From: a virus
IMG/VR virus record: IMGVR_UViG_3300005367_000008
Location: 1 to 28,670 of that record
Strand: one strand, 5' to 3'
Length of the DNA: 28,670 nt
In this document: positions 15,001 through 28,670 of the stretch, piece by piece
Position numbering within the stretch: position 1 is the stretch's first letter
Layout: the number at the start of each line of letters is the position of its first letter
Program-made: the position numbers and the translations under genes
Notes under the pieces: generated by a model
Told to the model about the DNA's origin: nothing
Seen by the model: the letters and a program-made list of their open reading frames with translations, nothing else
Database searches by the model: none

Positions 15001-16174
15001 CATGACCGCCGGGTTGAACCGGCGGCAGCTCGCCCTGCGTCGGCTGCGCCTGGGCGAGCGCCAACTTTTGTTCTTCCGTGACTCCAGGTGTAGCAGGACG
15101 GCGGCGCGACGCGACGTACCCGATAGCTCCAACCATCGGACCGGCGAGCACGCCGCCCGCCGCCGCTTCGGCAAGCTGTTCGCCGGACGGCGGCGTGTAG
15201 GTGCCGGTCGCCGCCGCCTTCGGCAACGGCTGAGCCAGTTCAGCACCGACGGTGACCAGCGGCATACCGAGGGTCGCGCGGCCGACGTTATTGAGAAAGC
15301 TCTTACCGGCAGCGCCGTGCAGAAACGGTGCCGGTGCACCGGCAACCGCTGCCCCGACCGCCGCCCCCGTCACTGTCGCAGCAAGATCGCCGTCGTTCTC
15401 CTCCGATGCACGATTAGCGCCTTCCATCGCGCCGAACACCACCATGCGCGGCAGACCGGCGAACACATACCCCGCCAATGTCGGAATTAGCTCGCCGACT
15501 TTGCCGGCGACATAACGCGGCGCGTTTGATGGATCGTTAAAGGCAGCCACAATGCTAGGGACGGTCGCGCCGTACTCCTTGGCCGCTTCCTCCATCCGCT
15601 TCGCCAACGCGGCCTTGTCGCTCTTGGCGGTGGCCGCCAGCCACTCACTGCCGGTCCAATCAGCCAGCTTCTGCTCGACGGCGTTGGCCACCCCTTCAAG
15701 ACCGTGCAGCATCGAGGCGGCGCCGCGCTCTATGCCGCGCCCGACCTCACCGACGATCCCCGGTTTTTCCGGCGTTGGCGTCGTGGTTTCCAGCGTGAGC
15801 GGATCGCCGAGGTTAGAAGAATACTCCTGAAGCAAGCTGGGATCGGACGACACGGCCCGCAGTGCAGCGGTGCTGTCGCCGCCGCCAGCGGCGGCGCGCT
15901 CAGCGATCATCTGCCGGGTCTGCTCGATCAGCGCCTGCATTCGCTCCGACCGCAGGCGCGGCCGGCCGACCGGCCGCCGCGCCAACGCGTAATCAGACGC
16001 GGTCAGCTCCTCGGCCGACGGCGCGGCGGTCTCGTCCCCGCCCGCCCCGTAGTCGGTGCCGCCGGCGAGGGAATCCTCGCCTTCGAGCGCCGAGGGCGAG
16101 ACCGACACCGCTGCGGATGCCGGGTCGAAAACCTGCGGGGTCGTGGCGTATGATTCGTCTTCGAGAGCGGCCAT
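9089..16174 (-). CDS. giant virion-associated PLxRFG protein with zincin-like peptidase motif
   Basis: A 2361-residue protein, ATG 16174, two bases after the previous stop. Order: disordered N-terminus; small-residue-rich hydrophobic helices (~220-370) that could insert in membranes; a Pro-rich repeat tract (DNLPPPQ, 399-440); long disordered Pro/Ala/Glu stretch; a beta-type domain near 735-790 (TYEVHDDGTTTRNK); a gluzincin-like motif HEGLH (H1185, E1186, H1189) with a possible third ligand in PHEII (E1258); then the PLxRFG-type region, with the literal motif PLNRFG at 1610-1615, and a C-terminus ending ELTRFARP. PLxRFG proteins are very large phage polypeptides thought to be packaged and delivered with DNA. 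Position after the transglycosylase parallels T7 gp16, so an ejected internal virion protein is my inference. One TACTAC palindrome lies in its linker. Confidence 0.75.
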   Translation of the reverse strand: MAALEDESYATTPQVFDPASAAVSVSPSALEGEDSLAGGTDYGAGGDETAAPSAEELTASDYALARRPVGRPRLRSERMQALIEQTRQMIAERAAAGGGDSTAALRAVSSDPSLLQEYSSNLGDPLTLETTTPTPEKPGIVGEVGRGIERGAASMLHGLEGVANAVEQKLADWTGSEWLAATAKSDKAALAKRMEEAAKEYGATVPSIVAAFNDPSNAPRYVAGKVGELIPTLAGYVFAGLPRMVVFGAMEGANRASEENDGDLAATVTGAAVGAAVAGAPAPFLHGAAGKSFLNNVGRATLGMPLVTVGAELAQPLPKAAATGTYTPPSGEQLAEAAAGGVLAGPMVGAIGYVASRRRPATPGVTEEQKLALAQAQPTQGELPPVQPGGHGELPLPTDNLPPPRDNVPPPQDNLPPPQDNLPPPQDNLPPPQDNLPPPPNRPPPDVPLPPIPDTMGVETNLRGDPTAPSMGETSGPPPRDSAPPPRAAPVVGEDIVPDDMAAQTNLGPAAPLPRVPLRPSPTGLRASVTNPEDFSRSGREEPSPPPAPSSEPVPPPRPQPFPPTERPVEQRPTRPEDFTVGTPTHVEPDDLDASRSVAKNAGGDVIGKGASPEEALADARARNGEPYQPENIEPVQEAPPAAAGTEPAARVGRDTVPETPAQTVAEAPPLTKAEEVKAKAAATRADKKAAAEAVKAKIAADAEAAAQAKTNTVTSAESDRSQKSPTSFRTERGSTYEVHDDGTTTRNKSLHPEHGAEDVGLKPRSAKTIYVNSHAEAANLSGAGVSGAFGHRLVLDNGKATLAWKTSPDAKWGTHANNRDIPYTTEPGVGKHPVEMWGPVKDVPGAAEAYSGQHAGNRIVEVTGRTEKVAPTTRSKPYVTPGEAADVTSRPTESARTPGKSTSTPVSRGAVKEMDKLSGKGMARGTPQPLPGERAPVGTNVSDRIAPYLVDKVLNREMSVAQAHEAYGVQKEVGEPGRGPGAPRQHRDLASYIRDALKRADDPSIETELKATLAGIAEQAKGKITPNVRATLAAATKQLDALLAHEQNVKARRAEHQAILNELEGGGPPSPESRSPDRAGQAATYKAARPEVNEPLMRRLEGAGGKLHGYLDDIINSQLSRALVPQHVALAQILKRILPNLEVVNKDLGDRVLGKYNPTTGALELNAKALRDRPSLGAVTTLLHEGLHGATVDYVHRLFTTPEAGLSTREVAHKTALRAISDEIYRVVNDHGISMTEMERRSTGYATREYAGGAPHEIITQVFTDPAVQRVLSQTKASPQLKAMLDSVGLGSRGVSSLWDAFKRTIRQIFGLPGNDSILDHIFRPLADITEMGGNYRAEVVKARAETLKANREVLNTPIAERTALSLENLRKAGREILSNVGSPAGRRTLRGAFHAATQDANVDFIKPYVPSVTAHREAWERIGNTITQERVRDYTTYTEDGRAIVEPHADKTDRLVNQLKFGPDGEAAQELMTDITFAKADLLDPKADNSHVAPAVLADLKDRFAALDPSARQAVREAFQVYTERDRAERAARVRQISEAAFPDFTPAQHDDIVAHMSTVGGIANIIDMADRSALAQRIGPRWANSGDLITHLAESERGGFVKGNYAPLNRFGEYVVSAGQVGKPDYVVQMFEKPSAAKEFKAKLEQDRNDVSQVFVKSDQNFRQMMVPDQALGTFDRAMEKAGVTGERALALRELYAGQLIQQGMRLASHSMKREYIAGASNEQARNLMMNFMAHTSRMGHLAHQGEVMRTYFQADKEARMLHQPGQGPNLDKDGRPLPQASAAQVAIAQAGVAEMRRRLTSLDGDNSADQMGRGVRALTTITVLDALVRPAHLFMTLAGTHAFALSMIGGRHGAVASTVALTKAYAQLTGTAGRAAGRNAMAVYHRELKAANWMTSELYRARLKQAGDIRPEHVDLLIDDFNRSNIINQTHMSEVRRMAGPDGWLGANGRFNYIARGLDIFGAGEHALESAMRVGTGKAAFVLELARNGGDVTGALAYAKNVARKSLPDWNFYNRPRLTTRQGAFGQFGSLVTQFKSFGMHSYGVQGNLIADAYRKGSPAERREALKTLALLHSSHALLWGGIGSTLFGGVPMMAVMGMYDYMTGSDRPHTNREWETWSRNYVHSIFGKTVADVYQYGLPAAAGINTSASLRFSNLGGVPEIRKYDVAGYTEFAAKVLTGAAGDVVEKMAETGTKLLQGDTRWETFATLLPRILEDPFRAYKLGTEGLKTAKGDRTIVPADRFTTFDLLAKGIGFNPSRVSDAQQSRAVIDLSEKTREDSHGHLLDKLVQSKGDKQALAEITRYNKSVAPADQITGQEIQRRFKEQARSNAQPDLYGMRVPRRQQATEFELTRFARP
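13546..13559. repeat. TACTAC-GC-GTAGTA palindrome, copy 3
   Basis: Exact 14-bp palindrome in the disordered linker of the giant virion gene, encoding part of APTTRSK on the minus strand. Confidence 0.8.
14855..14980 (-). repeat. six tandem 21-bp units encoding DN(L/V)PPP(Q/R/P)
   Basis: Six consecutive 21-bp units in the giant virion gene encode residues 399-440: DNLPPPR, DNVPPPQ, three DNLPPPQ and DNLPPPP. Units differ at third codon positions, so the array is not a very recent duplication. Proline-rich heptads form stiff extended linkers. The period equals seven codons, so copy-number change keeps the frame. Confidence 0.85.
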
Positions 16175-16176
16175 GC

Positions 16177-18432
16177 TTACCTCGGCGGCGCGGGGGTGGC
16201 GCCAATCGGTGACGCCGGGGCGGCTGCCGGCCTTGACGGCGCCAGTACCCGCATTGCCGTTGGAGACAGAACAATGCCAAGCGGCGTGCCGGCCTTATCG
16301 GTAACCATGCCGCTGCCGGCCAATGCCTTATTCGACCCGGTGTAAGGTCGGGCACCGTACTCGCCGGTAGAAAGCCCCTTGGCGATCTGCGCTGACCGAG
16401 AGGGCGTGATGCTGCGGTTGTTAAAATTTAGGTCCCGCCAGACGTCGGTCTCCCGACCCTGCCGGGCCGATATCTCGGCAGGCATCCCGACCATGTCCTT
16501 CTCGGGCCAATACTGCGGTTCGAGCCGGTCGAGGTGCCGCCGCAATTCCTCCATCGCCTTCGGGTCGGCGGCGCCGGCGGCGGCTATCTTGCGCTGGATC
16601 TCGGCGATCCGGCCTTCGAGCACGTTCTCCGACTTCGCCATCTCGATGTCGGGGCGTTGTTTCAGGTACCCCGCCTGCGCCTTTTTGTACTCGACGTCGG
16701 CTGCTTTATCCGCGATCTCGGCGTTGAGCTTCGCCCCCTCGCGCACGTTCTTCTGGTACGCCATCGGGTCTTGGGTGAGCTGCATCAAGCTCATGATGCG
16801 CGCCTGATCCATCGGTATCGGCGCGCCGACCGGCTGCCCGGTCGCCTCGTTGTAGCGCTGCGCGATGATGCCCTGCGGGGTGACGTGGACCCGCGCCTGC
16901 CCGCCGTCGGGCGTCGCCCAGTAGGCCAGCGCCAGCTCCTTCGCCGCACCCACCATGTCGCCCGCGCCCAAGAGACTATGGGCGCGCATCAACGCCTGGT
17001 TGGCCCCGACATGCTGCATCTGGAACAGCATCTCGCGGGCCTTCTGGGCGCCCTCCATGTCGCCGGCCCGGATAAACCCGGTGACCATCTTCCCCTCGGC
17101 GTACCGCCAGCCGTCGTTACTGGTCATGCCGCGCGGCAGATTGTCGTTCTGGTAGCGGTAGTAAATTCTCGGGTCGCCCGCCTGGGCCGACGCAACCATT
17201 GCCTGGGCGCCGGCGCGCGGCTGATAGGTGCCGTTATCGGTGAGCTTATCCTGCGACTCGGTGCCAGGTTTCGCGTTGGGGCCGCCGATTGCCTGTTGGA
17301 CAAAATTCATATCGACTGGCGGCAGGTGCTCGCGCTGCTGCTCCGGCGTGTGCCGCGACAGCTCGTTGGTCCGGTCGACGCCAACCCGGTAGGCGAGGAT
17401 CGAGGACGGAGTCCGCGGGCCGAACTCGTCGCGCGTCTCGCGGAACTTCAAGGCGCCCATCATCAGGTTGGTCGCCGGGTTCATCGGGTCGGCATTGGCG
17501 AAAGCCTGCCCGTAAGCGCTGTTTTTGAAACTCGCTATGTCGGCGTCGGTCAGCCCGGCCATCCCCTTTCGGCCGCCCTCGTTGTAGTTCGGGTCGAGCT
17601 TGCTGGTGGCGTAGAGGAGGTTGGCATAGTCCCAAGACCCGACCCCGGCTGCGGTCGCCGCCTGCACGATCTGGTCGTGCAGTGCCGGGTTGGATTTTTC
17701 CAGCTGCACCAGAAAGGTCGGGTCGATACTGGCTTTTGGGGTCGCGTTCGGCGGCGCCTCGGGTGCGGCGGTCGCCGACTTGGGGGTGCCGGTCGCTCCC
17801 TTCACGACGTACCGCTCTTTCGTCGGCGTCGTGTCGGCTTTGATCAGCGGCGGCTCAGGTTTCGGCGTCGATGCCGTTTCCGGCGTGCTGCTAGAAACCG
17901 TAGCACTAGGTTCCTCAAGCCCCGAACTGACGCGCTCAGCCTGAGACCCGGCCGAAAGGGCGTTACCGACAGCATCAGCCGCACGCTTAGCAGCTCTACC
18001 GATGCCGGTAACTATCTCCTCCGAATTAGGCGTAGCACGGGCAATATCGCCGGGGCTTAGCGCCTGCCCCGGCCCGACATTGCTGAAGGGGGTGGGCATC
18101 TCAGGCGACGGCGGCAAGGTACCCAGCGCGGACCGTGCCATCGACGGATCTATCGGTCCCTGCGCCTCCGGCGAAACCTCGCGCGGCGGCGGTTGCGGCG
18201 GTGGGGTAGGCGCCGCCATCGGCAGCACGCCTAACGCAGACCGCGCTTGCGCGGGGTCTGGTAAGTCCGGCGACGTAGGCGGGGGCGGCGCCGGCGGCGC
18301 CGCTAACGGTATCCGCTCACCAGCTGCAACTGCTTGCCGGGCGCGCTGCTCAGCAAGAAGCTGATCGACAGCTTGGGTTGCAGCCGCTCGCTCGTCATAA
18401 GGGCTATAGGGATCGTCGTCGAGTGCCGGCAT
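16177..18432 (-). CDS. internal virion protein with degenerate transglycosylase-like domain
   Basis: A 751-residue protein. The first ~235 residues are Pro/Ala/Ser-rich and disordered, with a repeated ARSALGxLP motif (63-71 and 99-107). Residues ~250-355 align by eye with the soluble-lytic-transglycosylase fold of the next upstream gene: LLYATSKLDPN against LLSVESSFNP, then GGRKGMAGL against GAQGIAQL. The catalytic glutamate position is Thr276 here, so this looks like a non-catalytic relative. Residues ~420-560 contain helical repeats (GAGDMVGAAKELALAYW) and a long Lys/Glu/Ala coiled-coil region follows (~570-660). It ends in a Pro/Ala tail. Placement between the active transglycosylase and the giant protein suggests an ejectosome component comparable to T7 gp15. 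Ribosome site GGAAGG precedes the start. Confidence 0.65.
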   Translation of the reverse strand: MPALDDDPYSPYDERAAATQAVDQLLAEQRARQAVAAGERIPLAAPPAPPPPTSPDLPDPAQARSALGVLPMAAPTPPPQPPPREVSPEAQGPIDPSMARSALGTLPPSPEMPTPFSNVGPGQALSPGDIARATPNSEEIVTGIGRAAKRAADAVGNALSAGSQAERVSSGLEEPSATVSSSTPETASTPKPEPPLIKADTTPTKERYVVKGATGTPKSATAAPEAPPNATPKASIDPTFLVQLEKSNPALHDQIVQAATAAGVGSWDYANLLYATSKLDPNYNEGGRKGMAGLTDADIASFKNSAYGQAFANADPMNPATNLMMGALKFRETRDEFGPRTPSSILAYRVGVDRTNELSRHTPEQQREHLPPVDMNFVQQAIGGPNAKPGTESQDKLTDNGTYQPRAGAQAMVASAQAGDPRIYYRYQNDNLPRGMTSNDGWRYAEGKMVTGFIRAGDMEGAQKAREMLFQMQHVGANQALMRAHSLLGAGDMVGAAKELALAYWATPDGGQARVHVTPQGIIAQRYNEATGQPVGAPIPMDQARIMSLMQLTQDPMAYQKNVREGAKLNAEIADKAADVEYKKAQAGYLKQRPDIEMAKSENVLEGRIAEIQRKIAAAGAADPKAMEELRRHLDRLEPQYWPEKDMVGMPAEISARQGRETDVWRDLNFNNRSITPSRSAQIAKGLSTGEYGARPYTGSNKALAGSGMVTDKAGTPLGIVLSPTAMRVLAPSRPAAAPASPIGATPAPPR

Positions 18433-18438
18433 TAGGTT

Positions 18439-19809
18439 TTACCTTCCAAGCGCGTTCGCCCGCTCGTCGACCAGCACGTTGCCGTCATTGCTGATCAACT
18501 GCCCGTCGGACCACCGAGGGGCGCCCGGCGGCGCATATTGGCTTTCGTTCGAGAAGGTCTTGTGGATCGGCGTCTTCCAGAAGTCGGGGTAATGCACCTC
18601 GTTCAAGTCGGGGTTGAGCGACGTCTGCGCCCGAGGGTCGCCCTGCTGCATCGCGCTCCAGAAGCCGCGCATGTCGTAGTCGGTCATATCGGCGTCGGGG
18701 TTGAACTTGACCTTGTTGTTCTTGACCCACGCCCGGAACGCCGCCTCCTGGGTCGGCTGTAACTGGGTGTTGTATGGATTATTGCCGCCGGCGCCGTACC
18801 CTGGCATTTGTGGGGTGCCGCCGCCGGACCCAGCTGTCTTACCGGTATATCTCGCATAATCGTCCGGCGTAACGAGACCGCCAGGGGGCATCACCCCTTT
18901 ACCGGTTACCCGAGGCGGTATCGGCGCCGGTGCAGGAGAAACATTCAATGCCGAAGGCGGCGGCACGGTTATCCTGTTAGCCGCCTCCGGCGGGGGGATC
19001 GCCGCAGTTGCGACGACCGGTCCGGTAGCCGGCGGCACCGCTGCTCGCGCCGCTGGCGTATCTGTCGTAACGCCAAGAGCCGACGGCGCGGCGGCGGGTG
19101 CCGGTGTTGACGCCGGGTACGCCGACGGGTCGTAACCCGTGCCGAATTGCCGGGCTCGACCCAGGACGGCGCCGGGGTAGGCGCGGGTGATCGGCCCCCA
19201 CTGACGAGTGTCGGGACCACCGTGGTAATACATCAGGGCCTTGTTGATGTCGCCGCCGTGCGCGTCGAGACCCTGGCGCAGATACTGCGCCGCCGCCGGG
19301 ATTGCTTGAGTGACGTCGAACGGGTCCTTAACGCCCAGACCCGCAGCCGTGCCGGGCATCAACTGCGCGATACCCTGCGCCCCTGCCGGACTGACGGCTT
19401 TCGGGTTAAAGCTCGACTCGACGCTCAGCAACCCGGTCAGGACGACAGGGTCTATCTTGTACTTCTCGGCGGCCTTGTTGATCAGCCCAGCGATCTCTTC
19501 CGACGGCCTGGTGCTGCTACGCGAGGCGGCATACTCCGGCACCTCGGCGCCCGGCGGCACCACCTTCGACGTACTACTACCGGTAGTAGCGTCAGTATCT
19601 CCCCCTCCACCGTAAGAATCCTGCCCAGTCGTCTTACGGTATTCCTCTAAATCCTTGGCTTCCTGATCCGCTAAGGCTTTACCGGTTTGATACCCCTCAA
19701 TTTCTTCCTGCCTCGCCAGCATCTTCTGGTGCGAGTTGATGAGTTCGTCCATCGACTTCCAGCCCTCGAAGAAACCCCCGACGCCGGCGAGCATGTTGCC
19801 GATCGCCAT
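18439..19809 (-). CDS. virion-associated lytic transglycosylase (SLT domain)
   Basis: A 456-residue protein, ATG 19809, preceded by GGGAGG. An N-terminal helical segment (residues 20-60) is followed by a Gly/Ser linker, then the SLT domain at ~103-225. The catalytic Glu131 lies in SVESSFNP, with GAQGIAQLMP (143-152) and ALMYYHGG (191-198), all diagnostic for family 1 transglycosylases. The rest is Pro/Ala-rich and disordered (~230-345), with a small C-terminal region. It would cleave peptidoglycan locally during DNA entry, as virion transglycosylases such as the T7 gp16 N-terminal domain do. Here the enzyme is a separate polypeptide rather than fused to the giant protein. A TACTAC palindrome encodes part of the Gly/Ser linker (DATTGSSTS). 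Confidence 0.82.
   Translation of the reverse strand: MAIGNMLAGVGGFFEGWKSMDELINSHQKMLARQEEIEGYQTGKALADQEAKDLEEYRKTTGQDSYGGGGDTDATTGSSTSKVVPPGAEVPEYAASRSSTRPSEEIAGLINKAAEKYKIDPVVLTGLLSVESSFNPKAVSPAGAQGIAQLMPGTAAGLGVKDPFDVTQAIPAAAQYLRQGLDAHGGDINKALMYYHGGPDTRQWGPITRAYPGAVLGRARQFGTGYDPSAYPASTPAPAAAPSALGVTTDTPAARAAVPPATGPVVATAAIPPPEAANRITVPPPSALNVSPAPAPIPPRVTGKGVMPPGGLVTPDDYARYTGKTAGSGGGTPQMPGYGAGGNNPYNTQLQPTQEAAFRAWVKNNKVKFNPDADMTDYDMRGFWSAMQQGDPRAQTSLNPDLNEVHYPDFWKTPIHKTFSNESQYAPPGAPRWSDGQLISNDGNVLVDERANALGR
19575..19588. repeat. TACTAC-CG-GTAGTA palindrome, copy 4
   Basis: Exact palindrome, extended to 16 bp by an outer C-G pair, in the Gly/Ser linker of the transglycosylase (ATTGSS on the minus strand). 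Confidence 0.8.
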
Positions 19810-19813
19810 ACCG

Positions 19814-21139
19814 TCAGCCTCCCAAGGCGCTCAGGGTCGCCCGTGTGTAGTCGACCGCCTTGTAGCCGGACGGGGTGGTAAAGACGGCGCGGGGGTCGAC
19901 CCGCTCGACTTCGTCGGCCATGTAGCCGACCTGGAGCGCCGGGCTGCCCTTGTAGCGGAAGGTGTACATCGGCAACCCGCCGACCCGGCCGATCGGCTTG
20001 ATGTCTTCCTTCAGCCGGCGGTCAGAGAGGAACCCAAGCATCGACGCGCCGATAGTGCCGGTCGCCGGCGAAGTCAGGAACGACCCGATGCCGCCGGCCG
20101 CCTTGAACAACCCGCTCCACGCGTCGTTCTCAGATTTCTGCGTCGCGGCGAAAGACGCCAGTTGTTCGTCGGCACCGGCCTTCTGCGCTCCGGTCGCACC
20201 GGCGATCACCGGCGCCAGGTTGCCGAGGGCCGAGGTGCCTTGGCCATAGAGGCTGTTAGCCGACCCCAGCTGCTGGCCGGCCGACGTCGTGTAGGGGTTG
20301 CCGGCGACGTAGCTGTAGCCGATCGGCGAGCCGCCGGCATTGACCCCGGCGGTCATGGCGCCGGTAGCGCCGGTGATGCCGCCGCTGCCGGCTTGCCCCG
20401 TCTGTATCCCGGTGCTGGCGCCACTCGTGGCTTGCTGCAACTCTTGCAGCGCTTGGGTCGGCAGGTTCGCCCCCATCGACGCCGCCTTGCCGGCCAGGTC
20501 GAGACCGGTCAGGTAAGACCGCTCGCGCGCCTGCGTCCCGGCGCCGGCTTGCGCCGCCGACGTGGCGATGTCGGCGATCCGGTTAGCCCCGGCATAAGCC
20601 GGGTCACTCGGGTCGAGGCCGCGACCGCGCAGCTCCTGTTCCTGGCGCTGCCGCGCCGCGTCGGCGGCGGTGCGCACATCGGCCTGCGCCGACGCCGACG
20701 CCTGATCGGCGCGGGCCGGTGAATTATAATCCAACGCCGACTGAACAAATTTATCTTCAGCCGGCATAAACACGTCGCGATACCGGTTGTAGGTATCGGT
20801 CGCCCGCTGGCGCGCCTCGCGCGCCGCAATGATCGACTCGTCGGCATTCTCCCCGGCCAGCTTCGACAACGAGGATTGCGAGGAGAGGTAGTCCTTGGCG
20901 TAGGGCCAGATATCGTTGAACTGCTGGCGGCCCCAGTTCTGCGCGTCCTGCGCCATCTTTAAGTAGGCTTGGCTGCGTTCGCCAGAAGCGGCGGTCAGGT
21001 CGTTGCCGTACTGCAACTGGCCGGGCGCGAGGCCGTAAAACATCGACGCGGCGTCTTGGTCGGAGTGAAACGCCTGCAACGACGCATCGAGCATCGGCTG
21101 GTAGGAGGGGGCATTTGGAGCGTCGGCGCCGAGACCCAT
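19814..21139 (-). CDS. helical virion protein ending in a short S74 intramolecular-chaperone domain
   Basis: A 441-residue protein. Residues 1-210 are mostly helical with Ala/Gln/Arg-rich coiled-coil character (DQASASAQADVRTAADAARQ); residues ~215-345 are Gly/Ala/Ser-rich. The last 70 residues begin SDRRLKEDI (S372, K377), the Ser-Lys motif of Peptidase_S74, and continue VGYMADEVERVDP and AVDY, all family marks. S74 domains normally autocleave just before this Ser after assisting trimer assembly of fibres and spikes. Here the body does not look like a beta-helical fibre and the position corresponds to internal virion proteins (T7 gp14-like). The S74 unit is a short version. The start has only a weak ribosome site. 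Confidence 0.7.
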   Translation of the reverse strand: MGLGADAPNAPSYQPMLDASLQAFHSDQDAASMFYGLAPGQLQYGNDLTAASGERSQAYLKMAQDAQNWGRQQFNDIWPYAKDYLSSQSSLSKLAGENADESIIAAREARQRATDTYNRYRDVFMPAEDKFVQSALDYNSPARADQASASAQADVRTAADAARQRQEQELRGRGLDPSDPAYAGANRIADIATSAAQAGAGTQARERSYLTGLDLAGKAASMGANLPTQALQELQQATSGASTGIQTGQAGSGGITGATGAMTAGVNAGGSPIGYSYVAGNPYTTSAGQQLGSANSLYGQGTSALGNLAPVIAGATGAQKAGADEQLASFAATQKSENDAWSGLFKAAGGIGSFLTSPATGTIGASMLGFLSDRRLKEDIKPIGRVGGLPMYTFRYKGSPALQVGYMADEVERVDPRAVFTTPSGYKAVDYTRATLSALGG

Positions 21140-21162
21140 CGAATTTGACTTTCAGATAGGAT

Positions 21163-21645
21163 CTATACGATCACGGGAATAGTAGACCTAAAATACCTTG
21201 GCTGATAGGCCAGCCACGGGCAGCTCGACGAGTACATCGCCAGGACGGTCATGCCGACGCCGGGCTCGTAGAGGTCAGCGATCGTCGTCTCGAGCGTCCA
21301 GCCGCCGCGCTGGCACATCTCTAAGACACGCATGTCGTCCGACCGAACCCCGGTCACCAGCTTGCCGCAGCCGCACTGGTTAAAGGCGTAGTCGCACACC
21401 AACCAGGCCAGCTCACGCGAGAACCAGCGAGGATCGTCGGCAGCCATGTGGGCGCGCATGCTGTTGCCGAGGTATTCGCAGGTTACAACCCCGCCCAGGA
21501 TGCGCTTACTACCCGTAGTAGGATCGACGTGACAGGTCACAAAGCTGTGGTCGACGCCGATAGTAAACCAGCCGCCGACCCGCTCCATGACCCAGCTGCC
21601 AGCGGCCGGTGCGTCGATCAGTATCTGCCGGGTTACCAGTGCCAT
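21163..21645 (-). CDS. GNAT-fold virion protein (T7 gp13-like position)
   Basis: A 160-residue protein from ATG 21645, overlapping the end of the fibre gene by 13 bases. The pattern resembles GCN5-like acetyltransferases: a beta-strand with RILGGVVTCEY, helix RWFSRELAWLVCDYAF, strand KLVTGVRSDDMRVLEMCQRGGW (written by family as V...N..~~~~~~~~GF) and a final strand. The GNAT acetyl-CoA signature (Q/RxxGxG/A) is not clear, so catalysis is doubtful. T7 gp13 and relatives have a GNAT-like fold and precede the internal core proteins, which matches this location. It is rich in cysteines (~7). It contains one exact TACTAC palindrome (DPTTGSKR). Confidence 0.6.
   Translation of the reverse strand: MALVTRQILIDAPAAGSWVMERVGGWFTIGVDHSFVTCHVDPTTGSKRILGGVVTCEYLGNSMRAHMAADDPRWFSRELAWLVCDYAFNQCGCGKLVTGVRSDDMRVLEMCQRGGWTLETTIADLYEPGVGMTVLAMYSSSCPWLAYQPRYFRSTIPVIV
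21507..21520. repeat. TACTAC-CC-GTAGTA palindrome, copy 5
   Basis: Exact palindrome in the GNAT-like gene, encoding part of PTTGSK between two predicted strands, about 1.9 kb from copy 4. Confidence 0.8.
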
Positions 21646-23810
21646 GTCTGCACACTCACCGCGTATTGCCGGGGCGGCAGGAGCTGCACGTTGGCGTCTA
21701 CCTGAAGCCGGCTCTTGGTCTCGATCCGCCCGTCGATCAGGGTAGCAACGCCGCCGCCGGGGCCGCCGCCGCCAGGGCCGCCGCCGCCACCCGTCCCGCC
21801 GCCGCCCGCACCGATGCCGCCACTCACCGGCGGGATCGGCACGATAGGCGTGCCGCCAGTCGTACCGTCGCCGTTGATGCCCGGCGGCGCTGAGTAGATG
21901 CCGAGATTTGTATTGCCCCCGGTGCCGGCGCAGACCTGGGCGGCCGACGGGATCGAGAACGCCAATACCTGGCCGGGGGTAAAGAGCGCCGTATTGACCG
22001 CGCCCACTACGCTCCCGCCGCCACCGCCGTCGCCGCCGGTAGATAGCCCACCATTGTGACCGCAGCCGCCAGCCCCGACGATCAGGACCGTGTTGTTGGA
22101 GGTGTTCCAGTCGGGTGGAAAAGTAAAGGGGCTGGTCGAGCTATGCGTCAGGAGGATGACAACGGGCCCGGTGCCGGGGTCGTACTCTAGGTAGATAACT
22201 CCTTCGCCGCCCAGAGCGCCAAGACCACCGCCGGCCAGGCCAGCACCACCGCCGCCACCTCCACCGCCATAAAGTCCGCCAACCCCGCCATTTCCACCAT
22301 GACCACTACCGCCCCAAGATCCACCAGAGCCGCCAGATCCCGATCCTCTCGTGCCGTCATATTCAGTCCCCGTGTTGCCGGTGGTGCTGGGGGTAGTCTG
22401 CCTCGGGGTGTGAAAGAGATCGCCCGCCCCGCCATAGCCGCCGGTGCCGTCGTACTGGCCGCCCTGGCCGTACTCGCCGGCGCCGAACAGCCCCGCCGCG
22501 CCGCCGCCGCCCGCGCCGCCGGCGACGCCGGAAACCCCGCCGGTAATCGTGAGCTGAGCCTGGAGGAACGACTTGGCGTTGGCCTGGTTGCCGCCGAAGT
22601 TCTGGGTGATCGCAAGGGTAGCTTGCGCCGACGAGCGGGCGGCAGCGCCCTGGCCGTCGAGACCGAGACCGGCGACCAGCGCCTCGCGGGCGACGCCGCC
22701 TAGGTAGACGATGCCATCGGAACTAAGGAGGGATTCGCGGGTGACGCCACCCAAAACCGCGTTAGGGATCGTCGTCGCAGCCGACCACGACGAGAAACCC
22801 GACGGCGGCGTGTATTGCAACGCACCCGCTCGGTCGCGCAATGTAAAGACGGTAGCCGCTGCCGCTCCCGTGCTAGCCACTAGCGTCATCGGCCATGCCG
22901 TCGCCGTTAACGCCGAACCACCTGTACCTGCCGCTGGGTTGCCGGCCGTCGAACTAGCGCCAAACCACGAGCCGTTATTTTTATTCCACCATAAAAGATT
23001 ATTAACAGCATCATAAGCTATGCCGATTATGTCACCCGAGACATAACTAAGACCTAATGCAACACCGTTTGAAGTAGTCCCCGATGACAACAAATAAACA
23101 GCATATGCCAACCCGGCTGTCGGTCCTTGAGTTATTCCTACATTCGCGGAACCAACACCAATCCCAGGAAGACCGGCAAGCGTACCTCCTACAAGTATTT
23201 CAGCGTACCATTTACCAGTGCCGGATACTTTCGTTACAAGACTTCGCGCACCACTGTTTGCCGTACCTGCTGGACATGTAGCTACGGTATTAAACGACGA
23301 TAGCGTAACACCAATAGCTTGATCCGCGCTAAACCCATAGCCCGACGTATCAGTGCCATCTAATTCAAGTGCAATCATCAACGAGGCAACACTAGAACTC
23401 CCTGTTGCTAAAGGATTGGCCGGAGTCGTGACGCTCTGTCCGCCATTCGCCCACCACGATATTGGCCCAGTGCTCGCGCTGACCGATATCGGCAAACTAG
23501 TCGAACAAGCATACCCCACGTAATATGTTGTCCCAGCGGTAACACTTAAAAGATTAGCGAGTGGTATGCGATTATACCCAGCGCCGATGCTTGTTATTTG
23601 AGCACTCGACGCTAACAGCACACTGTGTGCGCTGTCGTATATCAATGCCTTAAAAGTTGTACTAGCCGTTGCAGATGGAGTGTCTAACAGGACGGCTGTA
23701 ACCAAGCCATTACGCTGCGCTACCAACGCCGTTAGAAATATTGAATTAGCGTTTGCGTTGCCGCTAGTGCGAACAGACGGTGCATACCCGCTAAACCCGC
23801 CGGTCGGCAT
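21633..23810 (-). CDS. tail appendage protein: shared beta-domain, SPRY-like domain, polyglycine region
   Basis: A 725-residue protein whose ATG shares sequence with the preceding stop (TAATG overlap). Residues ~20-150 match by eye a domain inserted in the upstream gene (NSIFL..., SVTAGTTYYVGYACST). Residues ~195-345 look like a SPRY domain: GKWYAEILVGG, PGIGVGSANVGI, GDIIGIAYDAVNNLLWW and YTPPSGFSSW. Residues ~425-560 and 600-690 are glycine-dominated, with an intervening FTFPPDWNTSNNTVLIVGAGG stretch typical of glycine-rich phage tail domains. Glycine-rich tracts of this kind can pack as polyglycine-II helices in receptor-binding tips. The role is therefore host-surface binding, by inference. 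The DNA encoding the first ~280 residues (about 22970-23810) is visibly less GC-rich than its surroundings. Confidence 0.7.
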   Translation of the reverse strand: MPTGGFSGYAPSVRTSGNANANSIFLTALVAQRNGLVTAVLLDTPSATASTTFKALIYDSAHSVLLASSAQITSIGAGYNRIPLANLLSVTAGTTYYVGYACSTSLPISVSASTGPISWWANGGQSVTTPANPLATGSSSVASLMIALELDGTDTSGYGFSADQAIGVTLSSFNTVATCPAGTANSGARSLVTKVSGTGKWYAEILVGGTLAGLPGIGVGSANVGITQGPTAGLAYAVYLLSSGTTSNGVALGLSYVSGDIIGIAYDAVNNLLWWNKNNGSWFGASSTAGNPAAGTGGSALTATAWPMTLVASTGAAAATVFTLRDRAGALQYTPPSGFSSWSAATTIPNAVLGGVTRESLLSSDGIVYLGGVAREALVAGLGLDGQGAAARSSAQATLAITQNFGGNQANAKSFLQAQLTITGGVSGVAGGAGGGGAAGLFGAGEYGQGGQYDGTGGYGGAGDLFHTPRQTTPSTTGNTGTEYDGTRGSGSGGSGGSWGGSGHGGNGGVGGLYGGGGGGGGAGLAGGGLGALGGEGVIYLEYDPGTGPVVILLTHSSTSPFTFPPDWNTSNNTVLIVGAGGCGHNGGLSTGGDGGGGGSVVGAVNTALFTPGQVLAFSIPSAAQVCAGTGGNTNLGIYSAPPGINGDGTTGGTPIVPIPPVSGGIGAGGGGTGGGGGPGGGGPGGGVATLIDGRIETKSRLQVDANVQLLPPRQYAVSVQTWHW

Positions 23811-25303
23811 TAACTGTCGATCTTAAAACCGCTCGTCGCGGCGTTCAGCGTCGTCGCACTCCAGGCCGCACCGCTGTTGGGATCGGTCGGAAAATAACTC
23901 GCGAGCCAACCAAACGACGTGCCTAAAGCCTGACCGGCGAGAGACCCGGCGCTGTCGGTCGCGCCGGATTTGGTGCGCATAGATACCGTGCGGGTGCCGC
24001 TGTCAGACTTCTGGGCGTATGCTTTCACTGCGACGCAGTGAACGATGCCGGGTGGTGGCGAGGAGAGGGGGGCGAAAGCGTAGAGGTCTTCGTGGTTCAC
24101 GACGCTGTCGTAGACGTAGGAATACTGGCCGTCCGGCGGGTTGTTGTTTACCTCGTCGTAGTTTGCCGCGATGCCGGTGAGGTTGCCCCAAAAAAGGTAA
24201 TTCGCGACTGTCGTTGTTCCACCTGATGGCGGGTTAGGCGCGCCAGACCCAAACGTAGCAGTCCATCGGGTCGTGTTATTTCCGCCATCAAGCAATTGAG
24301 TATTGACTGCCGTATCAACCATAAAGCCAATCCAATATGTCGTACCGGCAGTAAGACTTTGAGGCGTCGTCAGCGGTAATATCGAAGGAACACCGGAGGT
24401 GCAACCTGTCACAGTGGTGCCGGAAGACATCAAACTACCTGGCGCGCCGCTGCTATTAGCATACACTACGCCACGATAATTTATCGTACCATTAGTAATA
24501 GCAGGCACGATAGAAATCGAATTTAGTGTACCAGAAGCTGCTGGTGTATAAGAACGAAGAAAAAGACCGTTTGCAGCAGGCTGACTTACATTAGAGCTTT
24601 TCGACACGCTAGACCCCAATATCCCCGCGCCAAACGCAAACTGCACCGCGCTGTCGGAGGCCGGAAACGTCGTCTCGATGCGCGGGGAGGTGAGGAGGAC
24701 AGCGTTGTTCGTGCTGCTCGTCGAGTCGAACAGATAGAGATCGTCGAAAGTCAGACTCCCGGTAATCCCAACGGCAATCGCAATCCCGTTAGCATAATTA
24801 TTAGCCGTACCTGTCGTATCGCCAGTGCCGCTAAACGCCGACACGCCATCAAGCCAAACTTGGTACGCAGCCGAATTACCGAAGGTGATATCCCATTCAA
24901 GATAGTGAGTCGAATTAGCAGCGACTGCGGCCGAAGACGCTAAGATCGTCCCCGCCACGGTACCATTTCGTAGATTAATAATCCCAGTCGGCTCAATGGT
25001 GATCGAACATTGTGGAGTAGCGCCATCACGAAATTGCATCAGTGTCGCGGCGTTACCCCCGGCGAGAGGACTATTAAAACGAATGCCGCCAATCAATCGC
25101 GAATAGTTAGTCGGCAGTGTTTTAACCAGTGACGAAGACGTACCGAGTGTATACGCCTGTCCCGTGGCACTCAACGGGGCTACAATAGTATGGGTACCGG
25201 CAGCGCTTGTCCATTCGCCTGCCGCCAGCAACGTCAGCACGACCGACGTATTGCTGTTAACGCCGCCATACTTATCGAATCCCTCCGTGAAGATCACCGC
25301 CAT
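23810..25303 (-). CDS. tail fibre/appendage protein with lectin-like fold and inserted beta-domain
   Basis: A 497-residue protein. I start at ATG 25303 (MAVIFTEGFDKYGG), five bases after the upstream stop; the longer frame adds an Arg-rich extension. Residues 1-215 resemble a concanavalin/LamG-type jelly roll seen in phage structural proteins (SRLIGGIRFN, YLEWDITFGN, YQVWLDGV, FDDLYLFD). A typical companion segment NYDEVNNNPPDGQYSYV (~381) with C-terminal VKAYAQKSDSGTR follows. Between them (~223-378) is an inserted domain, NGLFLRSYTP...SLTAGTTYWIGFMVDT, that matches the N-terminus of the next gene. The insert is encoded by less GC-rich DNA (about 24170-24637). No trimer chaperone is visible. 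It probably decorates the tail and binds glycans; this is inference. Confidence 0.68.
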   Translation of the reverse strand: MAVIFTEGFDKYGGVNSNTSVVLTLLAAGEWTSAAGTHTIVAPLSATGQAYTLGTSSSLVKTLPTNYSRLIGGIRFNSPLAGGNAATLMQFRDGATPQCSITIEPTGIINLRNGTVAGTILASSAAVAANSTHYLEWDITFGNSAAYQVWLDGVSAFSGTGDTTGTANNYANGIAIAVGITGSLTFDDLYLFDSTSSTNNAVLLTSPRIETTFPASDSAVQFAFGAGILGSSVSKSSNVSQPAANGLFLRSYTPAASGTLNSISIVPAITNGTINYRGVVYANSSGAPGSLMSSGTTVTGCTSGVPSILPLTTPQSLTAGTTYWIGFMVDTAVNTQLLDGGNNTTRWTATFGSGAPNPPSGGTTTVANYLFWGNLTGIAANYDEVNNNPPDGQYSYVYDSVVNHEDLYAFAPLSSPPPGIVHCVAVKAYAQKSDSGTRTVSMRTKSGATDSAGSLAGQALGTSFGWLASYFPTDPNSGAAWSATTLNAATSGFKIDS

Positions 25304-25307
25304 CGCA

Positions 25308-25967
25308 CTAGCTCGACGTAATAACAAACGACGCCGGTGGGAACGTCGCCGATGCGCCGTTGATAATTGCCTGGGCGGTGAACTTGCGGACCATGCCGTT
25401 GCCAGCAACCGACGTATTAACCGGGGTGCCGCCATTGGTCACAGTAAAAGTATTAGTAGTAGGGCCAGCAACCACCAAAGCACCAGTAAAGTTGCTCGCA
25501 CTGAATGTAGGATTTGTACCGCCATGCTCGATCGTCCACTGCACCAGGTCGGCCGCTGCGTAGCCGTGCCCCGGCACGGTCAAAACACCGGGCGACGCCG
25601 CTGAGACAGTGGCGGGGCGCCAGGGGTAGTTGCCGAGAAAATCCCAGGCGAGGAGATTGCCTGACGTCAGAGCGTCGAAGAGGCCAAAGGCGATGACGAT
25701 GCCCCAGTCAGCCGTCGCGGTGACAAACGCCAAAGACGTAGAATTGGCGATGGTGCTGGGGCCGGAGCCTGACGCCGCCGCCCAGTCGGCCGCGACGGTA
25801 GATTTGCGCGCGTAGGACCCGCCAGTCACCTCGGTAAAGCCGGTGCCAGCGTCGGTGCCGATAGCGGTAAAAAGGCCAATATAGGCCGTCGGGAGCGAGA
25901 AAATCGCCGACTTGCCGGTGATATGGTTGAGTATCCCTTGAGACACCCGGTCGGTGAAGCCGGTCAT
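25308..25967 (-). CDS. Gp80-like tail fibre protein with inserted FCCH-like domain
   Basis: A 219-residue protein. The N-terminal half follows the pattern of phage Gp80-like tail proteins: LNHITGK, TAYIGLFTA, EVTGGSYARKS, TSLAFVTATADWGIVIAFGLFDAL and SGNLLAWDFL. Its usual C-terminal strand (QAIINGASATFPPASFVIT) is separated from this by ~70 residues, ASPGVLTVPGHGYAAADLVQ...TNTFTVTNGGT, which look like the small beta-barrel repeat (FCCH-like, 'HG...gD.V...ntf.v') found in many phage fibres. Start ATG 25967 overlaps the upstream stop (ATGA). It is an accessory fibre/collar subunit by context; the exact place in the tail is unknown. Confidence 0.65.
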   Translation of the reverse strand: MTGFTDRVSQGILNHITGKSAIFSLPTAYIGLFTAIGTDAGTGFTEVTGGSYARKSTVAADWAAASGSGPSTIANSTSLAFVTATADWGIVIAFGLFDALTSGNLLAWDFLGNYPWRPATVSAASPGVLTVPGHGYAAADLVQWTIEHGGTNPTFSASNFTGALVVAGPTTNTFTVTNGGTPVNTSVAGNGMVRKFTAQAIINGASATFPPASFVITSS

Positions 25968-26452
25968 GGCATGCTACTTTCAAAGCCAGTCAACGTGCAG
26001 GCGAAATCACCGAAAGTGGCGTCGGGCGACGCCGGCCCAACGATAGCCAAAGTGTCCCCTTCGAGAAAATTGAGCGGCACGCCCGAGGTCGTCAGGGTGC
26101 CAAGGAGCTGCCCGGCGCCGACGGTGCCGCTCGCTACCGTGGTGTAGACCCCAGGTGCGGCTTCGGTCGCCTGGCGGATCAGGACGGTGACGCTGGCAGT
26201 CGCTACGAGCCCGCCGCGCATCTCGCTCGAATGGCCGAGGTAGTCGCCGAAATCTATCGGGAAGGTAACCGCCTTGGAGAACCGGTGCAGGAGTAAGCTC
26301 TGGTTGGCAGTAAGCTTATCGGGGACGAAGCACGCCACGATGTAGCGTGGGTGCGCTGAGGCGACGTCCCATTTGACACCGTCCCAGACCCAACTCGACC
26401 GATGGCCGTTAAATATTTGCCCTATAGACGGCGAATCTGGAAAATTGAGAAT
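25964..26452 (-). CDS. virion tail protein, N-terminus probably starts at an ATT codon
   Basis: The first conventional start in this frame is a GTG at 26338, but the frame stays open upstream and encodes ILNFPDSPSIGQIFNG and WVWDGVKWDVA. This is the well-known 'LNFP..P..GQ.f....~~~W.WDG.KW' N-terminus of many phage tail proteins. An in-frame TAG at 26462-26464 closes it off. Between the TAG and the conserved part lies only TAG-GAG-GCG-GCT-ATT, so GGAGG (26462-26458) is five bases from an ATT at 26452. I therefore annotate 162 residues from ATT. An upstream ATG-GCA directly precedes the TAG, so readthrough is the alternative. The remainder is beta-rich (VTFPIDFGDYLGHSSEMRGG, TASVTVLIRQAT) as in phage structural proteins. 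The HNH gene abuts this start. Confidence 0.62.
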   Translation of the reverse strand: MLNFPDSPSIGQIFNGHRSSWVWDGVKWDVASAHPRYIVACFVPDKLTANQSLLLHRFSKAVTFPIDFGDYLGHSSEMRGGLVATASVTVLIRQATEAAPGVYTTVASGTVGAGQLLGTLTTSGVPLNFLEGDTLAIVGPASPDATFGDFACTLTGFESSMP

Positions 26453-26473
26453 AGCCGCCTCCTATGCCATAAT
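26445..26473 (+). promoter_or_regulatory. sigma70-like promoter for the HNH gene
   Basis: TTGAGA (26445-26450) and CATAAT (26468-26473) are separated by exactly 17 bases; each hexamer is one base from consensus. Transcription would start near 26480, about 60 bases before the HNH ATG. The promoter overlaps the ATT start and Shine-Dalgarno of the divergently oriented tail gene. Confidence 0.6.
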
Positions 26474-26542
26474 CGCGGCGAGGCTAGTGCGTCCAACACC
26501 AGCCCCGCCACTTGACACAAGCAACCTTTCAGAGAGGTCGCC

Positions 26543-27181
26543 ATGTCCGCCTTTATTGATATCACCGGTCAGCGATTTGGCCGCCTGCTTATCCTTCAGC
26601 GCGATAAAACGCAGGGTAGGACTAAATGGCTGTGCCTTTGCGATTGCGGTCAGAAAGTGATCGTTCGTAGAGATAGCCTGAAAGAGGGACGCACACTGTC
26701 TTGTGGCTGTTACCACAAAGAAGTAATAGCTCCGAAAAATGCCCAGCGAAACATTGCGAGAACAACCCATGGGCACTCGCGTCGAGGCCGGATAACTAAA
26801 ACTTACGCTACTTGGAACCGCATGTTCAACCGGTGTTACAACCCCAACGTCAAAGACTATCCTGACTACGGTGGGCGCGGCATCACAGTCTGCGAGCGCT
26901 GGTACGTCTTTACTAATTTTCTCGCCGATATGGGCGAAGCACCGCCCGACAAAAGTCTGGATCGTTGGCCCGATAATGACGGCAACTACGAACCGGGCAA
27001 TTGCCGATGGGCGACACCTAAAGAACAATCCGCTAATAGGAGGCGACGCAAAGATAGCCCTACACCCGAGCAGGTAATTGCCATATTCAATGATCCACGC
27101 ACGCACCAAACAATTGCAGCGTACTACGGGATTAATCGCGGAACCGTCCACAATATCAAGCATAAACTGCATGGGCACTAA
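26543..27181 (+). CDS. free-standing HNH homing-type endonuclease
   Basis: A 212-residue protein, the only plus-strand gene inside the leftward virion block. N-terminal zinc-type segment: CLCDCGQK (31-38) and LSCGCYHKE (52-60). Core of the common phage HNH family: THGHS (75-79), TYATWNRMFNRCYNP (87-101), YPDYGGRGITVCERW (106-120), SLDRWPDNDGNYEPGNCRW (138-156) then ANRRRR. The C-terminal ~40 residues form an HTH (QTIAAYYGINRGTVHNIKHK), as in intron-associated DNA-binding tails that read a target site. It likely makes a site-specific cut to spread its own gene. It has GAGAGG upstream, its own promoter, and its stop overlaps the neighbouring gene's stop on the other strand (27178-27181). Base composition looks less GC-rich than its neighbours, consistent with transfer. 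Confidence 0.88.
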   Translation: MSAFIDITGQRFGRLLILQRDKTQGRTKWLCLCDCGQKVIVRRDSLKEGRTLSCGCYHKEVIAPKNAQRNIARTTHGHSRRGRITKTYATWNRMFNRCYNPNVKDYPDYGGRGITVCERWYVFTNFLADMGEAPPDKSLDRWPDNDGNYEPGNCRWATPKEQSANRRRRKDSPTPEQVIAIFNDPRTHQTIAAYYGINRGTVHNIKHKLHGH

Positions 27182-27537
27182 CCCCTGCGCCGCTTGGGTT
27201 GGCGGGGCAGGCGGAACTCGGCCGGACCGACCTCGCCGTGCGGGCTGACGATGGCGTCAGGCGACATGACGCCGTAATCGACGAGGTCCTGAAAGATGAC
27301 CGCTCGGTTGGTCGGGTCGCCGCGCTGTCCTGCCAGGCTCTCGACGGCTGCTTTCAACGCGGCCACAACCGCGCCGACATTGCGAAACTGGCCGGTCTCA
27401 TCAAACACCAGGGCGGGGATCACACTGGCGAAGGGATTGGGCGCCGGCACCCCCGGCCCGCCGCCGGCGAACTCCGAGGCCGGCGGCTTTGACAGCCTGG
27501 GCGACGGCACATGGTTAAAGGCGGTGCGGGTCCGCAT
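27178..27537 (-). CDS. small virion-region protein, unknown function
   Basis: A 119-residue protein whose ATG overlaps the upstream stop (TGATG at 27535-27539). The first ~45 residues are Pro/Gly-rich; then a helix (VGAVVAALKAAVESLAGQRG), NRAVIFQDLVDYGVMSPD and a basic C-terminus (LPRQPKRRRG). The '..LK.AVE.L.GQRG...NRAV.FQDLVD.G' pattern recurs in phage proteins encoded just after tail-tube/nozzle genes, with no function I can assign. It would be co-translated with that gene. The HNH gene begins to overlap only its last bases, so the coding region is intact. Confidence 0.62.
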   Translation of the reverse strand: MRTRTAFNHVPSPRLSKPPASEFAGGGPGVPAPNPFASVIPALVFDETGQFRNVGAVVAALKAAVESLAGQRGDPTNRAVIFQDLVDYGVMSPDAIVSPHGEVGPAEFRLPRQPKRRRG

Positions 27538-28670
27538 CAGACGCCTCTAAGCTCAGTCATGGTCGTCCCAAGTTGGACGGAGTACACGCTCGCCATCGAG
27601 ACGATCTCGATCTGGTGGTCGAAGGCGCGGAAGCCGGCGGGCAGTCGAAAGAGGTCCTGCTGTTTCGTCAGGTTGGCCTGCATGATCAGTTGGAAGTCGG
27701 GGCCGGCGTAGTAGCGCAGCACGCCCCAGACGCCGTCGGGCAGGGCGAGCGAGGGGTCGCCGTTGTCTAAAGGGGGAGGAGAGAACTGCCCCGTGCGGGG
27801 AATTTCCACTTCGGGGCCGAGCGTCACCTGCACGGCGCCCAGGCTTATGGGGGTGGGAGCGAAGAACCGCTTCGAGCGCCAGCGGAACCGCAGACGGGGC
27901 TGGCTCGTATCGTCCCAGCGGTAGATTTTCTTGTCGGCGCAGATATAGGTGTCGCCGTAATACTCATCGTTGAAGACGCTCACCGCGTTCTTGAAGGTCG
28001 AGAGGTCCTCGAACGCCAATCTTTGGTCAGCGTAGTCGAGGACAAATCCCGCGCCGGTTCCGTTGATCGCGAGGTACTGCGAGCGGTGCCGGGCGCAGTA
28101 GATGTCCTTGGCGTGGTAGCGTTCCTGCCACGCCTCCTTGTCGACCAATTGCAGCGTCTGGTTCGACATGCCATAGCCCGATATCTGGATCAGACCGTTT
28201 TGCGACGCGTAGTAAACCGCCAGCAGGTCGGTCACGACCGAGCCGCGCGACACGCAGGGCTCAGGGACCTGGGACTGCACGATGATGAAGTTAGACGGGG
28301 AGTTGCCAGACCCGGTCGACGGGTAGCCCGTCGTCAGAATCATCAGGTACTGCTGCCACACCGCCAGCGCGATGATGTTGTAATGGGCCGACTGATCGTA
28401 GATCGACGGCCAGGTGTGGGGTCTATCGGGTTCGCAGAAGTGGATCGTGTTGCCGGTCCAACCGACCAGCATACCGCCCGGCAGCGCGGTAAGGCCGTCG
28501 AGGTTATCCGGCGGGTTTTCCCAGCCGGCACTAGGCAGGGTCAGATTACCGACGATCGCGGTGTCGAGGGCGCTGTCAAGATAGGTGTTGGGCGGCGGGT
28601 TGCCACCGGGGCCATAGTTAAACCTCGCCACCTCGAAATACTGCGTGCCGGTGTCCTGGCCGGTGACCGT
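27537..28670 (-). CDS. tail-tube/nozzle-type protein (5' end outside the window)
   Basis: The frame is open to the window edge (378 codons visible), with TVTGQDTGTQYFEVARFNYG before the internal GTG at 28631, so that codon is not the true start. The sequence LDGLTALPGGMLVGWTGNTI, HFCEPDRPHTWP, NIIALAVWQQYLMILTTGYP and a CVSRGSVV segment follow a pattern widespread in short-tailed phages at the position of the T7 gp12 (tail tubular protein B, nozzle) gene. Later segments are WD/beta-propeller-like (DIYCARHRSQYLAING, YICADKKIYRWDD). It probably forms the tail nozzle or its adaptor to fibres. Identification rests on pattern memory and gene order. Confidence 0.6.
   Translation of the reverse strand, partial: TVTGQDTGTQYFEVARFNYGPGGNPPPNTYLDSALDTAIVGNLTLPSAGWENPPDNLDGLTALPGGMLVGWTGNTIHFCEPDRPHTWPSIYDQSAHYNIIALAVWQQYLMILTTGYPSTGSGNSPSNFIIVQSQVPEPCVSRGSVVTDLLAVYYASQNGLIQISGYGMSNQTLQLVDKEAWQERYHAKDIYCARHRSQYLAINGTGAGFVLDYADQRLAFEDLSTFKNAVSVFNDEYYGDTYICADKKIYRWDDTSQPRLRFRWRSKRFFAPTPISLGAVQVTLGPEVEIPRTGQFSPPPLDNGDPSLALPDGVWGVLRYYAGPDFQLIMQANLTKQQDLFRLPAGFRAFDHQIEIVSMASVYSVQLGTTMTELRGV

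Follow-up and report, generated by a model that had tools for sequence, protein, structure and literature searches.

How is a phage structural gene translated when the codons for its conserved N-terminus are preceded by none of the usual start codons? The question is raised by a locus in the virus record IMGVR_UViG_3300005367_000008, of which positions 1 to 28,670 (28.7 kb) were analysed and are referred to here as the window. At this locus, a tail-fibre-like virion gene lies next to a free-standing HNH endonuclease gene on the opposite strand, and an earlier note, made from the letters alone, had proposed that the virion gene is translated either from an ATT codon or by readthrough of an in-frame TAG. 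The elements of the virion gene are as follows.

25964 to 26452, minus strand: tail-fibre-like virion gene, counted with its start codon; initiation at the ATT would give 162 residues
26450 to 26452, minus strand: ATT as the proposed start codon; the alignment places GTG (L002), TTG (L003), and ATG (L004) at this position
26458 to 26463, minus strand: AGGAGG Shine-Dalgarno sequence, with a 5-nt spacer CGGCT (26457 to 26453) to the ATT
26462 to 26464, minus strand: in-frame TAG, taken to be a normal stop that lies outside the gene; stops also lie near the start in relatives
26336 to 26338, minus strand: GTG, first ordinary in-frame start, without a Shine-Dalgarno sequence; GTT in L003, GTC in L004
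25308 to 25967, minus strand: downstream gene of the Gp80 podophage fibre family, with an ATGA overlap with the virion gene stop

The N-terminus of the virion gene

Read down the minus strand from position 26470, the junction is ATGGCA TAG GAG GCG GCT ATT CTC AAT TTT CCA, and the frame is open from the TAG (26464–26462) to the stop at 25964. The earlier note described this arrangement correctly: the TAG precedes the ATT by three codons, GGAGG is five bases from the ATT, and the conserved N-terminus lacks an ordinary start, as no in-frame ATG, GTG, or TTG occurs between the TAG and the GTG at 26338. The 37 codons separating the ATT codon from this GTG encode LNFPDSPSIGQ...SSWVWDGVKW. When they are compared with three relatives, substitutions at codon positions 1/2/3 amount to 4/2/12, 7/1/23, and 7/4/17 and are thus mostly third-position and synonymous, a pattern of purifying selection. 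Because of this distribution, the segment upstream of GTG 26338 is regarded as genuine coding sequence.

The predicted virion protein matches PHROG 11585 (E 1e-9) and PHROG 7049, tail fiber protein (E 6e-7), with both matches spanning residues 35–155 only, and its homologues in three viral contigs (L002, L003, and L004) are 95, 80, and 75 % identical, respectively. No relatives were found in the bacterial genomes searched with a profile of the protein, and none in the PDB at a meaningful E-value; an AlphaFold model (mean pLDDT 52.5) was too poor for use. The extent of the PHROG matches implies that different N-termini can be joined to the C-terminal domain, which would suit a start at GTG 26338 that yields this domain only (residues 39–161). 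Such an internal start is nevertheless highly improbable and was rejected, since the GTG is not preceded by a Shine-Dalgarno sequence, the codon is not conserved, and the 37 codons ahead of it bear the selection pattern described above. Gene callers that accept only ATG, GTG, or TTG would cut 38 residues from the virion protein.

Start position and initiation

The three closest homologues begin exactly at the position of the window's ATT, each with an ordinary start codon: GTG-TTG-AAT-TTC in L002, TTG-TTG-AAT-TTT in L003, and ATG-ATC-GAC-TTT in L004. Close relatives accordingly begin [start]-LNF or [start]-IDF, and a pattern scan added two further phages with ATG-LNFPD behind GGAGG, one beginning MLNFPDAPSIGQ (L072/L073) and the other MLNFPDSP (L075). 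In more distant relatives, the start lies one or two codons further upstream (M-A-LDF, M-P-LDF, M-T-A-LNF, M-A-INF, and M-A-A-INF). The earlier note had assumed that relatives commonly begin M-A-I-L-N-F and had seen the two halves of such a start in ATGGCA and the ATT; as no relative was found to begin in this way, the idea of a split start was abandoned. The ATT itself is not conserved, being replaced by GTG, TTG, or ATG in relatives. No other ATT start for the LNF motif emerged from the pattern scan of viral contigs, and the 38 matches to the same pattern in genome contigs were all judged from their downstream translation to be due to chance.

The duplex of the Shine-Dalgarno sequence with the anti-Shine-Dalgarno (−10.8 kcal/mol) is the strongest of the 15 genes tested, and AGGAGG has just 6 copies on the minus strand of the 28.7 kb, one of which stands well spaced before the homologous start position; this placement is more than chance. 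As a point against the AUU start, the RNA fold predicted there pairs the last Shine-Dalgarno bases, although it is no better than that of shuffled sequences. Because the homologous start position, a perfect Shine-Dalgarno sequence, and a conserved coding N-terminus all converge on it, the ATT start favoured by the earlier note is well supported, and we assign a probability of roughly 0.7 to the reading of an intact virion gene with AUU 26452–26450 as its start codon. By its start position and Shine-Dalgarno sequence, it can be classed as a predicted AUU-initiated gene. The initiator tRNA would start the gene at this AUU, aided by the near-perfect AGGAGG with its 5-nt spacer, at a rate probably below that of AUG. 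AUU is a weak start codon, and structural proteins usually need good expression; we infer that AUU is used here and that the yield is reduced.

An alternative explanation is a sequencing or assembly error, with ATG as the true codon at 26452–26450 and one base (G to T at 26450) miscalled. A single substitution at 26450 would indeed give ATG-CTC-AAT-TTT, ideally spaced from the Shine-Dalgarno sequence in the manner of L072. Because the record is one viral contig and no second, independent copy of its ATT junction was found in pattern scans of viral and genome contigs, such a one-base error has to be reckoned with, but we regard it as unlikely: the surrounding tract is coherent (Shine-Dalgarno sequence, promoter-like site, and open frame) and the virion gene shows no further damage to its frame.

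The second proposal of the earlier note, readthrough of the TAG, would produce an N-terminally extended protein beginning at ATG 26470 or in the frame antisense to the HNH gene, and upstream the frame does in fact run on without a stop to 27178. A search for a suppressor tRNA, which the earlier note had recommended, found no tRNA in the 28.7-kb record (possibly a fragment) or in three relatives, and TAG terminates other genes in the window. ATG 26470 is not preceded by a Shine-Dalgarno sequence, and protein homology upstream of the TAG is absent from the close homologues, all of which start after it and have no residues there. Moreover, the normal arrangement here is a stop adjoining the start, as seen in all close relatives (TAGacGTG, TAGgaactattagTTG, and TGAgATG), and in L002 the stop before the GTG ends a 50-aa ORF. 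The window's TAG is therefore expected before such a gene. It is an ordinary stop; readthrough is not supported and is scarcely credible.

The HNH gene and the replaced tract

If the virion gene starts at AUU, its ordinary start must be accounted for, and the DNA ahead of it offers a plausible source of the loss. The features concerned are as follows.

26543 to 27181, plus strand: free-standing HNH endonuclease gene (phrog_374, E 1.7e-65)
26404 to 27190, no strand: replacement tract relative to G001, ends approximate; HNH gene and first ~16 virion-gene codons
27178 to 27537, minus strand: upstream gene encoding 119 aa, which forms the left flank of the tract
26462 to 27178, minus strand: stop-free stretch on the strand opposite the HNH gene, in frame with the virion gene; it runs from a GTG that shares bases with the TAG of the upstream gene (TAGTG) down to the TAG ahead of the ATT
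26445 to 26473, plus strand: sigma-70-like promoter, candidate for the HNH gene (TTGAGA-17-CATAAT, extended −10 TG), overlapping the virion start codon

The alignment with HNH-free relatives called for by the earlier note was made with G001, the contig of L002, which has an empty site and a GTG at the ATT position. Window and G001 are 97.6 % identical over 16697–26446 and 98.4 % over 27196–28670, and between these flanks lie 749 nt in the window versus about 183 in G001. Seen as a replacement, ~790 bp (HNH gene plus first ~16 virion codons) stand in for ~220 bp of G001 that hold the 50-aa ORF. The first 16 virion codons have 67 % nucleotide identity to G001 (9 synonymous and 3 nonsynonymous codon differences) and ~40 % G+C, as compared to 63 % for the window; the next 21 codons are 97 % identical, and identity after the first 16 is 97–99 %.

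Homing with co-conversion of flanking DNA is known for free-standing phage endonucleases (PMC2988022). Because the empty site in the near-identical G001 and the diverged flank match this pattern, the HNH gene was presumably acquired in the same manner: the ~790-bp segment would have arrived with it by homing, with co-converted flank, and would have displaced the ordinary junction together with a start like the GTG of G001. The loss of the normal start would thus go back to a mobile nuclease gene that took the place of the DNA directly ahead of the virion gene. The suspicion that the junction is a scar of the HNH insertion is borne out in so far as it is linked to the insertion, whereas the small scar envisaged within a split ATGGCA...ATT gives way to a replacement tract that extends ~16 codons into the gene.

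It is also conceivable that the HNH insertion left a start-loss mutant in which the virion gene is unmade or made at useless levels, given that AUU initiation is weak (PMC13009471) and that the ordinary GTG start, present in G001, was lost to the replacement. This scenario is very unlikely, as the whole reading frame is undamaged and its protein is 95 % identical to that of L002, the window's strongest Shine-Dalgarno sequence precedes the ATT, and the downstream fibre gene is likewise intact with its ATGA overlap.

Several further observations concern the HNH gene and its surroundings. No Pfam HNH model matches the HNH protein; residues 180–208 weakly resemble sigma-70 region 4 or a helix-turn-helix (Pfam E 1.8e-4, below the cut-off), and this C-terminal part probably binds DNA. 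The 50-aa ORF of G001 (MPIYTVTIQAPAIYEEVV...VVTEQ, L002:2842–2995) sits at the place of the HNH gene and is missing from the window. Ribosomes might in theory use the frame antisense to the HNH gene to cross the insertion by coupled translation; this frame would be open with a probability of ~0.23 under the phage's codon usage, and 4 of 25 HNH homologues are also stop-free in this frame, for which reasons it is probably incidental and was set aside as a coupling device. Elsewhere, 11592–16697 aligns with G001 only patchily, in short pieces of 89–100 % identity with gaps (92–98 % on either side), and constitutes another mosaic region, within and around the gene for a 2361-aa protein. Since positions 1–90 of the window are identical to G001 59274–59363 and those from 256 onward match G001 6014 onward, either the left end of the window is rearranged or the two genomes were opened at different points.

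The replaced tract contains a second element that bears on the start region. A site TTGAGA-17-TGcCATAAT, found with an E. coli consensus scan that may not fit the host, lies upstream of the HNH gene and is directed into it. It is the only site on either strand of the 28.7 kb in which hexamer matches plus TG reach at least 10, and none of 3000 local shuffles attained its score, in a test made after the site had been seen. No comparable site is present in the same region of L002, L003, or L004. As one occurs upstream of just 2 of 22 HNH homologues (L028 and L029), members of the family do not generally carry a promoter of this type of their own.

The −35 of this site covers virion codons 1–3 and its extended −10 covers ATGGCA; the reverse complement of TGCCATAAT is ATTATGGCA, and that of TTGAGAAT is ATTCTCAA. 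The ATGGCA that had appeared striking to the earlier note is thus better explained as the reverse complement of the extended −10 (TGcCATAAT) of a candidate HNH promoter. The −35 owes its final A to the third base of the ATT; any NTG start would turn the hexamer into TTGAGC. Because this base completes the −35 on the other strand, one stretch probably serves two divergent functions, with an HNH promoter, whose activity we infer from sequence, on the opposite strand of the same bases; the overlap probably shaped the start region. It is speculative to hold the promoter responsible for the loss of the ordinary start. A tentative and rather doubtful extension would be that a selfish HNH gene incorporated its neighbour's start into its own promoter: the ATT would improve the −35 (TTGAGC to TTGAGA) at the cost of the normal start, the strong Shine-Dalgarno sequence would compensate in part, and virion expression would be lowered and locked. 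If real, the locus represents a clear phage AUU start with a traceable origin, the start-bearing relative being 97–98 % identical, and points to promoter overlap as a means by which mobile nuclease genes can remodel the start region of an adjoining gene.

Relation to known systems

AUU starts are documented for E. coli infC and pcnB (as cited in PMC1780047) and for S. aureus cvfC1, where an AUU behind an extended Shine-Dalgarno sequence gives ~10 % of the yield of AUG (PMC13009471). The virion gene resembles all three in having AUU where an ordinary start is absent, and cvfC1 in particular in that the AUU follows an unusually strong Shine-Dalgarno sequence. However, infC, pcnB, and cvfC1 are chromosomal genes that are limited or autoregulated via the weak start, whereas here the AUU is predicted for a phage structural gene and, unlike in this comparison set, is not conserved in its relatives.

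With respect to the nuclease gene, the locus is reminiscent of the T4 mob genes (PMC2988022), in that one of two near-identical phages carries an intergenic HNH gene that the other lacks, beside a diverged flank as expected from co-conversion; embedded or flanking promoters are likewise known in T4. In contrast to the mob genes, the HNH gene is antisense to its neighbours and the promoter-like site overlaps the start codon of one of them. As in exchange regions bounded by homing endonuclease genes (HEGs; PMC10448857), a nuclease gene edges a recombined segment beside structural genes, yet the window has a single nuclease gene with a short tract rather than a nuclease-bracketed cargo island. 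AUU starts and HNH homing are thus known kinds of event, while the overlap of a probable promoter with a neighbour's start is the new and interesting part of this locus.
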